Source: Candidatus Moraniibacteriota bacterium
GTDB taxonomy: Bacteria; Patescibacteriota; Minisyncoccia; Moranbacterales; DUUL01
Assembly (NCBI GenBank): GCA_027008775.1
Contig: JALVDV010000002.1
Span: forward strand, 1 to 39,888
Length of the DNA stretch: 39,888 bases
Direction: 5' to 3'
The notes under the pieces were generated by a model. It searched no databases. It saw nothing but the letters and a program-made list of their open reading frames with translations, and was not told the DNA's origin. This document shows positions 3,913-38,360 of this stretch, piece after piece. The translations under genes and the position numbers were made by a program. Every line of letters begins with the position of its first letter. The first letter of the stretch is position 1.

Positions 3913-4983
3913 TTATATTTTGAATTCAATAACGTCGCCATCTTGGACGATGTAATCTTTACCTTCTACTCGGATGAGACCTTGTTCTTTGGCTTTGGAG
4001 CGAGAGCCGGCTTTGATGAGGTCTTCGTAAGAAATAACTTCGGCGCAAATAAATTTTTCTTGGAAATCACTGTGGATGGCGCGACCGGCTTGGGGAGCGG
4101 TGGAATTTTTTTTGATGGGCCATGACCTGGTTTCGTCCGGACCGGTGGTTAAAAATGTTATTAAGTTTAAGAGTTGGTAACTTTTTTCTATCAATTTTTT
4201 TAGACCTGATTTTAGTCCCAATTCTTTTATCTCGCTTTTGTTCAGTTCCAACAATTCCTCTTCAGTTTTGACATCAAGAGCCAAATATTTTTCCGGCGGA
4301 AGTTTGATATCGTGTTTTTTCAGTTCCTCTGTGATTTTTTCCGGGTTTTGAGTGTTGAAAGCGTAAAGAATTGGTTTAAAGGTGAGCAGTTGCAGATCTT
4401 TAATCAGGGAAAAATCTTCTTCGGAAAGAGAGTTAAGAAAAGAGTGAATTTTTTCCAAATTATTTTCGTTGAGAATTTTTTGCAATTCTTCAGTCAATTC
4501 TTTTTGGCGGAGGAGTATTTTGTCGGATGATCCTTTAATTTCCTTATTGAGCTTGGATAATCTTTTTTCCACTGTTTCCAAGTCGGCCAGAATCAGTTCG
4601 GTGTTGATTATTTCCATATCGCGTTTGGGGTCAATGGTTTCGTGGACGTGAGTAATGTTTTTGTTTTCAAAAGTGCGAACCACTTGCACCAAGGCGTCAA
4701 CTTCTCTGATGTTGTGGAGGAATTTATTGCCCAACCCCTGTCCTTCGGCGGCGCCTTTGACCAAGCCGGCAATGTCAACAAACTCAACGGTGCTGTAAAG
4801 TTTTTTGGCTGACCGGAACAGTTCGGCCAGTTTATCAACTCTTTTGTCGGGGACTTCCACTATGCCAACATTCGGTTCTATGGTGCAGAAGGGGTAGTTG
4901 TTGATATCCACTTGGATTTTGGTTAGAGCTTTGAAAAGAGTTGATTTGCCGACATTGGGCAGGCCGATTATTCCAATTTTCAT
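3913..4983 (-). CDS. ychF: Ribosome-binding ATPase/GTPase YchF
   Basis: 356 residues, full length for the YchF/OLA1 branch of the Obg superfamily. The P-loop GLPNVGKST is at residues 8-16, the switch II DIAG at 70-73 is followed by the Obg-type [12 protein letters not shown], and a coiled-coil insertion covers about 130-190. The C-terminal TGS domain (about 275-356) ends in DGDVIEFKI. Family knowledge: YchF prefers ATP, binds ribosomes and is linked to stress adaptation and translation fidelity. The gene stands alone on the minus strand and converges on the small membrane protein at its 3' side. Nothing looks broken. Confidence 0.95.
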
Positions 4984-32060: not shown

Positions 32061-32492
32061 ATGAAATTTTCCAGGGCAACCACCTACGGTTTGCGCGCTC
32101 TGGGTAACTTACTGTCGGCAGGAGCCGATGATATTTCCAGAGTAAAGTCTTTGCAGTTAATAGCCAGAGAAGAAAAAATTTCCTTGAAGTTTTTGGAAAG
32201 GCTGTTTTCTCAGCTTAGAAAGGCCGGAATCGTTGCTTCTGTCAGGGGCGCAAATGGCGGCTATTATTTGCAGAGAGGCGCTGAAAAAATCAGTTTGTTG
32301 GATGTTTTGCAGGCTCTGGGAGAGGATTTGGCTGTTTTCGGTTGTCTGGCGGATACAACCGGAAGAGTAAAATGTCGCCATAGCGAAAATTGTGGAGCGG
32401 TGCCGGTATTGCAGAGAGTACAGGGAGCGATTAATCAGACTTTGGGAGAAATGAGATTGAGAGATTTGATAGAGTCTGTTGAGGAATTTTGA
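32061..32492 (+). CDS. iscR: Rrf2-family Fe-S cluster regulator (IscR-like)
   Basis: 143 residues. Winged helix-turn-helix at the N-terminus (SRATTYGLRALGNLL, then LIAREEKISLKFLERLFSQL and VRGANGGYYL as the wing) is the Rrf2 type. Three cysteines, Cys95, Cys105 and Cys111, occupy the ligand region of IscR, with spacing 9 and 5 instead of the usual 5 and 5. It leads the iscU-iscS genes. A sensor-repressor of cluster assembly is inferred. It may be cysteine-metabolism-related (CymR-like), but the Cys set and neighbours favour Fe-S sensing. Confidence 0.88.
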   Translation: MKFSRATTYGLRALGNLLSAGADDISRVKSLQLIAREEKISLKFLERLFSQLRKAGIVASVRGANGGYYLQRGAEKISLLDVLQALGEDLAVFGCLADTTGRVKCRHSENCGAVPVLQRVQGAINQTLGEMRLRDLIESVEEF

Positions 32493-32500
32493 TTTGTAAA

Positions 32501-32692
32501 TTTGTCAGCCCTAGGCTAATCAGTCTAGGACTTGATAAATTTTAGTTCAAATATAATTGTTCAAATTTTAAATTCTTCAAACAAGCTGTAAATTGCCGAA
32601 CATTTTGTAATTATTATTGTTTTAAACATTTAAAATTAAGTTATTTAAAATTGAATTAAAATTTAAAATTTACAAATTAAAATTATAAAACC
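32501..32692. repeat. 192-base leader repeat, copy 1 (before iscU)
   Basis: This AT-rich stretch begins 9 bases after the regulator stop and ends immediately before the iscU ATG. The copy at 33142-33333 matches 187 of 192 positions, all differences being transitions, four of them within positions 14-27. Positions 10-29 can form a small hairpin (CCTAG with CTAGG in this copy). Confidence 0.95.
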
Positions 32693-33061
32693 ATGTATTC
32701 AAAAAAGGTTTTAGATCATTTTAAAAATCCTCGCAATCAAGGCAAATTGGAGGATGCCAATGCGGTAGCGCAGAAGGGTAATCCGGTTTGCGGAGATGTG
32801 ATGAAGATTTATTTGAAAATTGAGAATGGCATTATTAAAGACGCCAAATTTGAGACTTTGGGTTGCGCGGCGGCCATTGCGGTTTCTTCCCTATTGACGG
32901 AGTATATCAAGGGAATGACTTTAGAGGAGGCAAAAAAGGTGACCAAAGATGATATTATTAGAGAAGCTGACGGTTTGCCTCCGGCCAAGGTTCACTGTTC
33001 TATGCTGGGAATTGATGCGGCTTTAACAGCTCTAAAGAATTATGAGGAAAGGGAAAAATAA
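32693..33061 (+). CDS. iscU: Fe-S cluster assembly scaffold IscU/NifU-like
   Basis: 122 residues. Conserved Cys33 (NPVCGDVM), Cys58 (TLGCAAA) and Cys102 (KVHCSMLG) plus Asp35 form the cluster-binding set. Opening YSKKVLDHFKNPRNQGKLED is the usual IscU/NifU N-terminus. It is transcribed with iscS and accepts sulfur from it. The ATG immediately follows the leader repeat. Confidence 0.95.
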   Translation: MYSKKVLDHFKNPRNQGKLEDANAVAQKGNPVCGDVMKIYLKIENGIIKDAKFETLGCAAAIAVSSLLTEYIKGMTLEEAKKVTKDDIIREADGLPPAKVHCSMLGIDAALTALKNYEEREK

Positions 33062-33141
33062 TTTGTGGAGCTTATCCTGTTAAGGTTTTAACAGTAGTGA
33101 AGGTTGATAAATCTATTTTGCTAAACAATTTTAATTTGTAA

Positions 33142-33333
33142 TTTGTCAGCCCTAAGCTGATCGGTCTGGGACTTGATAAATTTTAGTTTAAATATAATTG
33201 TTCAAATTTTAAATTCTTCAAACAAGCTGTAAATTGCCGAACATTTTGTAATTATTATTGTTTTAAACATTTAAAATTAAGTTATTTAAAATTGAATTAA
33301 AATTTAAAATTTACAAATTAAAATTATAAAACC
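33142..33333. repeat. 192-base leader repeat, copy 2 (before iscS)
   Basis: Same length and order as copy 1, ending at the iscS ATG. The only differences are at repeat positions 14, 18, 22, 27 and 47. Eighty bases separate the iscU stop from its start. In this copy the small hairpin is weakened to a G-T pair and one mismatch. Confidence 0.95.
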
Positions 33334-34548
33334 ATGATTTATCTAGATCACAGCGCAACTACGCCGGTGAACGAGGAAGTTTTCCGAAAGATGAAGCCTT
33401 ATTTTTCGGAAAAATTTGGTAATGCTTCCTCCATTCATTCTTACGGTTTAGAGGCTTTTGAAGCGGTGGAAGAGACCAGAAAAAAGGTGGCCGATTTTTT
33501 GGGCGCCGATCCCAAAGAGGTGCTTTTTACTTCCGGAGCGACAGAGTCAGACAACCTGGCTGTTTTTGGAGTGGCGGAGGCTCAAGAGAAAGAAGGAAAA
33601 AAATTGTCTGAATTACATTTTATTACCACTTCAGTGGAGCATCCGGCAATAGAAGAGCCGTTTTTAAAATTAAAAAGAAAGGGAGCGCAAGTGACCTTTT
33701 TACCGGTTCAATCAAATGGAATAGTGGATTTAAAGGAAGTGGAAAAGGCTATTCAGGACAACACGGTTTTTATTTCCATGGTTTATGTTAACAGCGAGGT
33801 TGGCGCTAAACAGCCGATAAAGGAAGTTGGGCGCTTGGTTAAGAATGTTAGAGAGATCAGAAAAAAGAAAAACAATCTTTTGCCTTTGTTATTCCACACT
33901 GATGCGGTTCAGGCAGCTAATTTCTTTACTTGTGATGTTAACGAGTTGGGAGTTGATTTAATGTCTTTGTCCGGGCATAAAGTTTATGGTCCCAAGGGCG
34001 TTGGCGCTTTGTTTGTTCGCCGAGGAGTGAAATTGATGCCTCAACAGATTGGCGGGCATCAGGAAAACAATTTGCGCAGTGGAACTTATAATGTGCCGGC
34101 GATTGTGGGAATGGGAGAGGCTTTAAAAATTGTCAAACGTGATCGGGCCAAGAACAATGTTTATTTGCGTTCTCTGCAAAAAAAGTTGATAGACGGAATT
34201 TTAAATAAAGTTCCTCAGGCTCATTTGACGACTGATGTTAAGAACTCCAGTCCGGCCCATGTGCATTTTATCTTTCCCGGAGCAGAAGGGGAATCCGTTC
34301 TGATGGATTTGGATTTGAATGGAATCTGTGTTTCCACCGGTTCGGCTTGCGCTTCCAGTAGCTTGAAATCATCGTCAACTTTGGCGGCTATGGGCGTTTC
34401 TAAAGAAATAGTGCACGGGGCGATTAGAATGACTTTGGGTTTAGATAATACGGAAGAGCAAATTGATAAAGTGTTGGAGATTTTGCCAAAGGTGGTAGAA
34501 AAGTATCGCTCTATGTCGCCCGATGATTTGTTTACTTCCGAGAAGTAA
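33334..34548 (+). CDS. iscS: Cysteine desulfurase IscS/NifS-like
   Basis: 404 residues. The PLP lysine is Lys216 in SGHKVYGPKG, the stacking His is in VEHPAI (103), and the catalytic Cys339 is in the GSACASSSLK loop, the type I IscS-like form. It opens MIYLDHSATTPVNEEVF, the standard NifS start. It supplies persulfide sulfur to IscU. The ATG follows directly on the second leader copy, as in iscU. Confidence 0.96.
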   Translation: MIYLDHSATTPVNEEVFRKMKPYFSEKFGNASSIHSYGLEAFEAVEETRKKVADFLGADPKEVLFTSGATESDNLAVFGVAEAQEKEGKKLSELHFITTSVEHPAIEEPFLKLKRKGAQVTFLPVQSNGIVDLKEVEKAIQDNTVFISMVYVNSEVGAKQPIKEVGRLVKNVREIRKKKNNLLPLLFHTDAVQAANFFTCDVNELGVDLMSLSGHKVYGPKGVGALFVRRGVKLMPQQIGGHQENNLRSGTYNVPAIVGMGEALKIVKRDRAKNNVYLRSLQKKLIDGILNKVPQAHLTTDVKNSSPAHVHFIFPGAEGESVLMDLDLNGICVSTGSACASSSLKSSSTLAAMGVSKEIVHGAIRMTLGLDNTEEQIDKVLEILPKVVEKYRSMSPDDLFTSEK

Positions 34549-36701: not shown

Positions 36702-38360
36702 ATGACTAAGCAACAAAAAAACAAAAACTGTCAAAAGTGTGGGCAGAAATTTGTTATTTCAGAAAATGATCTTAAACTTTATGAAAAAATGCAAGTTCCG
36801 GAGCCGGAATGGTGTCCGAATTGTCGTCTGGAGTACGGCTTGGCCTTTTGGGCTTTTGGGAAGTTTAACATTCGCCAGAGTGATTTAAGTGGGGAAAAAA
36901 TTATTTCTATTTTTCCTCCTGAGGCGGATTTTCCCGTTTACCACTCTAAGGAGTGGCATTCTGATAAATGGGAGGCTCCGGAGATGGATTTGGATCTGGA
37001 TAAACCATTTTTTCAGCAATTGAAAGAATTGCAGTCAAAATCTCCGCATCCTCATCAGTTGGGATCTAATAATGTAAATTGTGATTATTGTGATGATGTT
37101 TGGAATTCCAAGAATTGTTATCTTTGTCGTTCTTTGGCTAACGGGGAGAATTTGCTTTATAGTTATCGAGTGATAGGTTGTCGCGATTCTATTGATGTAA
37201 CTTATTCTTATAATCTGGAACGAAGTTATGATGCTGTTTATTGTTTTGATTCTTACAATATTAAGTATGCCTTTAATTCCCGAAATTGTTCTCATTCAAG
37301 TTTTATTTACGACTGTCGCAATGTTGACAATTGTTTTATGTGTTGGAATTTGCGTAATAAATCATATTGTATTTTAAATAAACAGTATTCCAAGGAGGAA
37401 TACGAGAAAAAAATAAAAGAATATAATTTGGGAAGTTATCAGGTGGTGCAAGAATTAAAGAAAAAATTTGCTGATATTTTACAGAAAGAGGCTATTCACA
37501 GGGAAAATATTGATTTTAAAACGGTTGATTGTACGGGAAATTATATTGATGAAAGCAAAAATTGCCACGACTGCTATTTTTTGGAAACTTCGGAAAATTG
37601 CTCTCATGTTTTTCGAGGTCTTAAGAATAAAGACTGTATTGATTCCCCCGGTCTTTTTGGTTGTGAATTGAGTCACGCTTCTATGCAAATAGCCGACTCC
37701 TACAACACGAAAAATTCTATGTATGCGGTTAATTGTAGAGACTCGGAATATCTTGATTTTTGTTATGATTGTGAGAAATGTTTTGGCTGCGTTGGTTTGA
37801 AAAAGAAAAAATATTGTATCCTAAATAAAGAATACAGTCCGGAAGAGTATGAGAGTTTGGTGAAAAAATTGAAAGAAAAGATTAAAGAGGAGGGCAAAGA
37901 ATCGCACAACTTTTTCCCGTTAAACATGGCTCTTCTTGGTTACAATTTATCTCTGGCGGAGACCTATTATCCGAAAACGAGGGAAGAGGTGGAAAAAATG
38001 GGTGGCCGTTGGGATGAAGTTGAAACGGTTAAAAATACACAGAGAGAAATAATTCCTTTTATAGATGATATTAAGGATGTTTCCGATGATGTTTTGCAGA
38101 AAGGTTTTCAGTGCGAAGTTAGTGGTAGACCATTTAGTATTACTAAGGATGAATTAAAATTTTATAGACAAAATAACATTCCTCTTCCCCATCATTATCC
38201 GGACGAGAGAACGAAAACCAGGCTTAAAGCAATGACAGGACCGTTTCCTCGTCAGGAACATTGCCATTTTTGTCAGAAAGAAATTACCACTTATTACCCA
38301 AAGAACTGGGGTTATGAAAAGATTGCTTGCAAGCAGTGTTACAACAAAGAAGTAAACTAA
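36702..38360 (+). CDS. Zinc-ribbon, Cys/Asn/Tyr-rich repeat protein
   Basis: 552 residues. N-terminal zinc knuckle: CQKCGQKF at 10-17 with WCPNC at 37-41. The middle (about 125-385) is rich in Cys, Asn, Tyr and Ser in short periodic runs such as NSKNCYLC, CRDSIDVTYSYN and YNTKNSMYAVNC, resembling a beta-solenoid. Two near-copies of one module occur: CFMCWNLRNKSYCILNKQYS (211-230) and CFGCVGLKKKKYCILNKEYS (about 360-379), each followed by a KEEYE helix. A C-terminal treble-clef-like module has CEVSGRPF (471) and CHFCQKE / CKQC pairs (521-546). A family seen in CPR genomes, of unknown function; no secretion signal, so cytoplasmic or nucleic-acid-associated is possible. A paralog follows. Confidence 0.7.
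   Translation: MTKQQKNKNCQKCGQKFVISENDLKLYEKMQVPEPEWCPNCRLEYGLAFWAFGKFNIRQSDLSGEKIISIFPPEADFPVYHSKEWHSDKWEAPEMDLDLDKPFFQQLKELQSKSPHPHQLGSNNVNCDYCDDVWNSKNCYLCRSLANGENLLYSYRVIGCRDSIDVTYSYNLERSYDAVYCFDSYNIKYAFNSRNCSHSSFIYDCRNVDNCFMCWNLRNKSYCILNKQYSKEEYEKKIKEYNLGSYQVVQELKKKFADILQKEAIHRENIDFKTVDCTGNYIDESKNCHDCYFLETSENCSHVFRGLKNKDCIDSPGLFGCELSHASMQIADSYNTKNSMYAVNCRDSEYLDFCYDCEKCFGCVGLKKKKYCILNKEYSPEEYESLVKKLKEKIKEEGKESHNFFPLNMALLGYNLSLAETYYPKTREEVEKMGGRWDEVETVKNTQREIIPFIDDIKDVSDDVLQKGFQCEVSGRPFSITKDELKFYRQNNIPLPHHYPDERTKTRLKAMTGPFPRQEHCHFCQKEITTYYPKNWGYEKIACKQCYNKEVN

Follow-up and report, generated by a model that had tools for sequence, protein, structure and literature searches.

The duplicated leaders of iscU and iscS are very probably dispersed palindromic repeats

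In the window, by which we mean the whole stretch of 39,888 nt analysed here, iscU and iscS are each preceded by a copy of nearly the same sequence, which a preliminary description had regarded as a cis-regulatory leader. We conclude that the two "leaders" are very probably non-autonomous palindromic repeats, each composed of an element A with a nested hairpin B', which were inserted before two genera split and were later homogenised. The conclusion draws on features that can be seen directly, namely the dispersal and palindromic structure of A, its orthologous insertions and their empty counterparts, and an in-frame insertion. Because the repeat is scattered through the genome and through those of relatives, even within rRNA and protein genes, the pair at the isc genes is most likely selfish DNA, and an apparent isc regulator is recast as such.

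Results

The duplicated stretch is longer than 192 nt and differs only at its left end

The genes and repeats at the locus are collected in Table 1. An ungapped comparison upstream of each ATG reproduced the identity of 187 of 192 positions given in the preliminary description, and all five differences are indeed transitions (copy 1 positions 32514, 32518, 32522, 32527, and 32548). It was also correct that the left flanks of the copies differ and that the duplicate ends at the start codon, which is exactly so for both iscU and iscS. The real repeat extends further (32485–32692 versus 33127–33333, 96.6% identical), with 16 nt of extra homology, containing one 1-nt indel, upstream of the 192-nt core; its length and identity exclude a chance likeness of the two copies. 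The 144 nt preceding the ATG are identical between the copies, and the six differences, counting the indel, are all found within the left 64 nt (p about 0.0008 under a uniform distribution). Thus, although four of the five substitutions do fall inside the nested hairpin, as had been noticed, the clustering concerns the left end as a whole and not the hairpin as such.

Table 1. Positions of the genes and repeats at the isc locus, and of module B in relatives
Feature	Position	Strand	Evidence or remark
Rrf2-family (IscR-like) regulator gene, end overlapping copy 1	32061..32492	+	PF02082, E 9.6e-31
Copy 1 of palindromic element A with nested B', before iscU	32485..32684	+	model R1, 142 bits
B' in left arm of copy 1, 31-nt hairpin	32505..32535	+	fold -11.4 kcal/mol
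ATAAAACC, 8 nt from palindrome end to iscU start codon	32685..32692	+	outside palindrome
iscU (NifU_N scaffold)	32693..33061	+	PF01592, E 3.5e-47
Copy 2 of element A with nested B', before iscS	33127..33325	+	model R1, 144 bits over 33134-33325
B' of copy 2	33146..33176	+	three substitutions off the consensus of the other copies
ATAAAACC ahead of iscS start codon	33326..33333	+	same as at copy 1
iscS (IscS/NifS-type cysteine desulfurase, class V aminotransferase)	33334..34548	+	PF00266, E 2.5e-75
B inserts in protein genes of relatives	L160, L163, L165, L166, L168, L174, L202		B at about position 1500 or 900
5' tRNA fragment with B in D-arm, then GIY-YIG ORF, then intact tRNA	L176 882-1273, L195 520-923, L183, L199		

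The best model for the iscS product was TIGR03402, at a score under that model's cut-off, and a search of named genomes with IscS returned only Clostridia and others at about 47%, which was not informative. The final Phe codon and the stop of the Rrf2 gene (GAA TTT TGA) are supplied by the left end of copy 1; the equivalent gene in a genome of a related genus (G002) ends in GAA TTT TAA. Elsewhere in the window, positions 36702–38360 encode a cysteine-rich protein of 552 aa for which neither Pfam nor NCBIfam gave a match.

Each copy is a palindrome with a second hairpin nested in its left arm

Both copies are imperfect palindromes over their full length of ~200 nt, with the GC-rich, 31-nt B' nested in the left arm. 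Element A is AT-rich and measures ~150–170 bp without B and about 200 bp (range to 210) with it. The left end of A, AATTTT(A/G)ATTTGTAAATTTG, base-pairs with the right end, AAATTTACAAATTAAAATT, and the terminal inverted repeat of copy 1 reads AATTTTGATTTG...CAAATTAAAATT. Compared with dinucleotide shuffles, the folding of copy 1 has a z-score of -4.5 as DNA and -6.6 as RNA, and 14 of the 15 A copies tested fold far below shuffled sequence.

The octamer ATAAAACC between the palindrome and the start codon is common to both genes in both genomes, with a difference of one base at iscU of G002, and was absent downstream of the other A copies whose flanks were compared. Independent insertions do not explain this shared flank; either the second copy may have arisen together with it, or both genes may already have had this start context.

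Element A is dispersed in this genome and in a related genus

Further copies, for which the preliminary description had recommended a search, were found: this genome has at least six good ones, and G002 has at least 14 full ones, which lie between unrelated genes and share the same conserved ends (AATTTTAATTTGTAATTTG...CAAATTACAAATTAAAATT). In the present genome, which is 0.93 Mb in size, one full copy lies between the 23S and 5S rRNA genes, a copy lies between a glycosyltransferase gene and its neighbour, and partial copies occur on contigs 1, 3, 4, and 7. On a different contig from the copies of the window, two A inserts sit inside the 23S rRNA gene, both in hairpin loops, with 150 and 226 nt at places where the Rfam model has 7 and 6 nt. 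The same gene also contains a group I intron (contig 4, L009 4742–5043) besides these two palindromic inserts. Finally, an A element carrying two B modules lies within a glycosyltransferase ORF, adding about 60 aa and leaving the frame open; homologues from nine other genomes align at residues 1–96 and 158–465 and do not have the intervening segment, and the insert is shared with G002 only. Two neighbouring proteins (L010, about 2080–2150 and near 4600) contain in-frame low-complexity peptides encoded by a different repeat, made of GAACAGTGAACAG units; at the first of these sites G002 carries another repeat.

A search model built from 13 copies and run against 131 genomes gave, after calibration, matches in 12 of them, which were strong only in G000, G002, and G059. 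G059, from another family of the order, has a single copy, and matches elsewhere among the 131 genomes were weak or absent. The G059 locus (L134 1834–2039, beside an rnhB-like gene) is a composite of A and B' with a near-identical B' sequence, which suggests that A and B' spread together as one composite. Matches by blastn in 44 of 57 relatives were not counted as A carriers because most of them are short AT-rich arms.

Element A has the features of a MITE-type repeat, being short, non-coding, dispersed, and bounded by terminal inverted repeats with conserved ends (AATTTTAATTTG...CAAATTAAAATT). No target-site duplication was apparent by eye in the flanks of about 14 copies, and a fixed AATT duplication inside the A ends is possible. 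A search covering Y1 transposases found none with ends matching those of A; the only Y1 match of the genome has other end hairpins, and a RAYT/IS200 system was rejected as the mover of A for this reason. Viral contigs searched with the A end gave no match. Because multi-copy A is known from two genera only, together with the single copy in G059, we infer rather than observe active mobility.

The two isc insertions predate the split from G002 and were later homogenised

Both isc sites are empty in G006, which belongs to the same family and has just short spacers ahead of iscU and iscS. G002 has an A element at the identical position before iscU, from which B' is missing as an exact alignment gap. 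Ahead of iscS in G002 stands an A element reduced to its right half, whose right junction is the same as here; the left half has been lost, and the sequence to the left of the remnant is homologous to the 3' part of iscU. Copy 2 therefore predates the divergence from G002. This makes two accounts that involve no gene conversion unlikely: that the iscU leader was recently duplicated as a segment, and that one source copy was recently inserted at the two sites independently. The 8-nt flank beyond the palindrome would, however, fit a copied leader.

Outside B', the two copies in the present genome are identical at 166 of 168 positions (99%), whereas copy 1 and its G002 counterpart at iscU are 81% identical and in G002 the two copies agree at 83% over the half that they share. 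The central loop is identical at 41 of 41 positions between the two copies here and strongly different between the two genera. Because the insertions are common to both genera, later gene conversion best explains the identity of the copies in the present genome. Conversion was one of two options offered in the preliminary description and is now well supported, since G002 has the same two sites with copies that have diverged; it can be assessed on the right half only, as the iscS-side copy of G002 has lost its left half. With all six differences confined to the left 64 nt, the hairpin cluster described earlier is mostly the part outside the conversion tract.

The probable history is as follows. 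An ancestor of this genus and that of G002 would have acquired A insertions ahead of both iscU and iscS, and gene conversion in the present lineage would then have let one copy overwrite the right ~144 nt of its partner. The partners would be direct repeats 641 bp apart, and recombination between them would be expected to delete 641 bp including iscU, in agreement with the preliminary description.

A regulatory leader is improbable

The proposal that the stretch is a cis-regulatory unit (promoter, riboswitch-like RNA, or translation element) copied to give iscU and iscS joint and equal control was not supported, and we consider it even less probable than a recent duplication. Both copies do terminate at start codons in the ATAAAACC context, the arrangement is partly retained in G002, and promoter-like hexamers, though weak, are more numerous than expected (9 versus 3.7). 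However, members of the same family lie in 23S rRNA, within a protein ORF, and beside many unrelated genes; the element is absent from the isc genes of relatives such as G006; and G002 has lost its left half before iscS. In addition, an Rfam search detected no leader-RNA family at the copies, with only the tRNAs of the window reaching the gathering score. Covariation in the hairpin, for which the preliminary description had proposed an analysis, was not supported: relative to the copy between 23S and 5S rRNA, the three hairpin changes of copy 2 weaken B' from -11.4 to -6.8 kcal/mol and are uncompensated. That the assembler duplicated or homogenised a single repeat is conceivable for an apparently draft genome of 11 contigs with a repeat of about read length, but it is extremely improbable given that six differences are retained, that the left flanks differ, that both copies are on one contig, and that the separate genome G002 carries the element at both places.

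B' belongs to a second family that also exists on its own

B' is a decayed relative (23 of 31 positions identical) of a module, B, which is a 30-nt double hairpin (TCCGCCCAAGGCGGACCAGCCTTGGGCTGG). A survey with strict filters across the order found B in 36 of 124 genomes (up to three mismatches), and 12 of 380 genomes of the phylum contained it at up to two mismatches; the reversed sequence, used as a control, gave zero matches. In other genomes, open frames and Pfam domains place B in the reading frame of PolA, Tgt, RsmH, DnaJ (five genomes), glycosyltransferases, and a Mur ligase, where it encodes the 10-aa peptide SA(Q/K/P)GGPA(S/L/F)GW or a near form. Comparison of Tgt with structure 10fb revealed B as an exact 10-residue insert. 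In TsaD, RlmN, and UvrB, B is read in another frame.

B also interrupts truncated copies of tRNA (in the D-arm), 5S rRNA, and tmRNA genes that stand beside an intact gene. At four loci (Table 1), an ORF of ~90 aa for a GIY-YIG endonuclease, recognised from its motif alone, lies between the B-interrupted tRNA piece and the intact tRNA, and the unit of tRNA fragment, B, and GIY-YIG ORF looks like a tRNA-associated mobile unit. Tandem duplicates of tRNA-Ser or tRNA-Val with B in the D-loop adjoin intact copies at L191 953–1260, L190, and L186, and partial 5S rRNA or tmRNA copies containing B adjoin the intact gene at L182, L189, and L170. The idea that B is an intron of functional tRNAs was rejected because the interrupted pieces mostly adjoin an intact copy.

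Discussion

The isc pair may be one converted example of something broader. We regard the arguments as evenly poised on whether two interlocking, coding-tolerant palindrome families, B (in frame as SAQGGPASGW and in tRNA, 5S, and tmRNA duplicates, some of them by small GIY-YIG genes) and A, which takes up B, are the sources of many unexplained inserts in the rRNA and proteins of these reduced genomes. At the isc genes themselves, A elements occupy permissive spots of a compact operon, and A most likely has no isc-specific function. Both genes would remain expressed because the inserts occupy gaps between stop and start codons. As RNA, each copy is predicted to form a strong stem (about -49 kcal/mol) on which RNase III, as with Correia elements, or RNA polymerase could act, or which could alter the balance of iscU and iscS. 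An acquired effect of A on isc expression is possible, and any such effect would have arisen as a by-product or been co-opted later. The pair would also offer a natural example of direct repeats, here flanking iscU, that undergo gene conversion.

In our search of the literature on palindromic or MITE elements in CPR bacteria, nothing direct was found. With REP/BIME/REPIN sequences, which go with RAYT transposases, B shares its form, a short double hairpin, and its dispersal over many genomes; unlike them, it lies inside ORFs and RNA-gene fragments and has no visible GTAG tag, and at first look its presence did not follow that of Y1 transposases. Like Correia/NEMIS elements and other bacterial MITEs, A is short, AT-rich, non-coding, flanked by terminal inverted repeats, and often located just upstream of genes, but it has no visible TA target duplication, and the search of Y1 transposases found no matching autonomous transposon. 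RNase III cleaves the transcripts of Correia elements (PMC10969869).

Rickettsia palindromic elements (RPEs) are small self-folding repeats found between genes, in frame in protein genes, and in RNA genes (PMC2229807, PMC10969869). A resembles them in being self-complementary and multi-copy in one genome, at 150–170 bp without B beside the about 100–150 bp of RPEs; further, in-frame inserts in protein genes occur for A (one glycosyltransferase) and for B (several proteins). It differs in being longer (150–210 bp), in carrying a second palindromic module that also exists alone, and in having sites in 23S rRNA. We do not claim membership of A in the RPE or MITE families because the likeness is one of form and sites, no target duplication was seen, and no mover was found. 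In these respects A appears to work like RPEs and MITEs, and a small genome, probably of the Patescibacteria/CPR to judge by its size and by the group I intron and inserts of its 23S rRNA, thus harbours palindromes comparable with those of Rickettsia and tolerated in rRNA, operon spacers, and proteins. Lastly, 23S genes of CPR bacteria commonly hold short (<200 bp) unexplained inserts (PMC11270868). The two A inserts in 23S rRNA are, like intervening sequences, hairpins at the tips of 23S helices, but the sequence of A also occurs outside rRNA, so that some of the short 23S inserts in these bacteria may derive from A elements.
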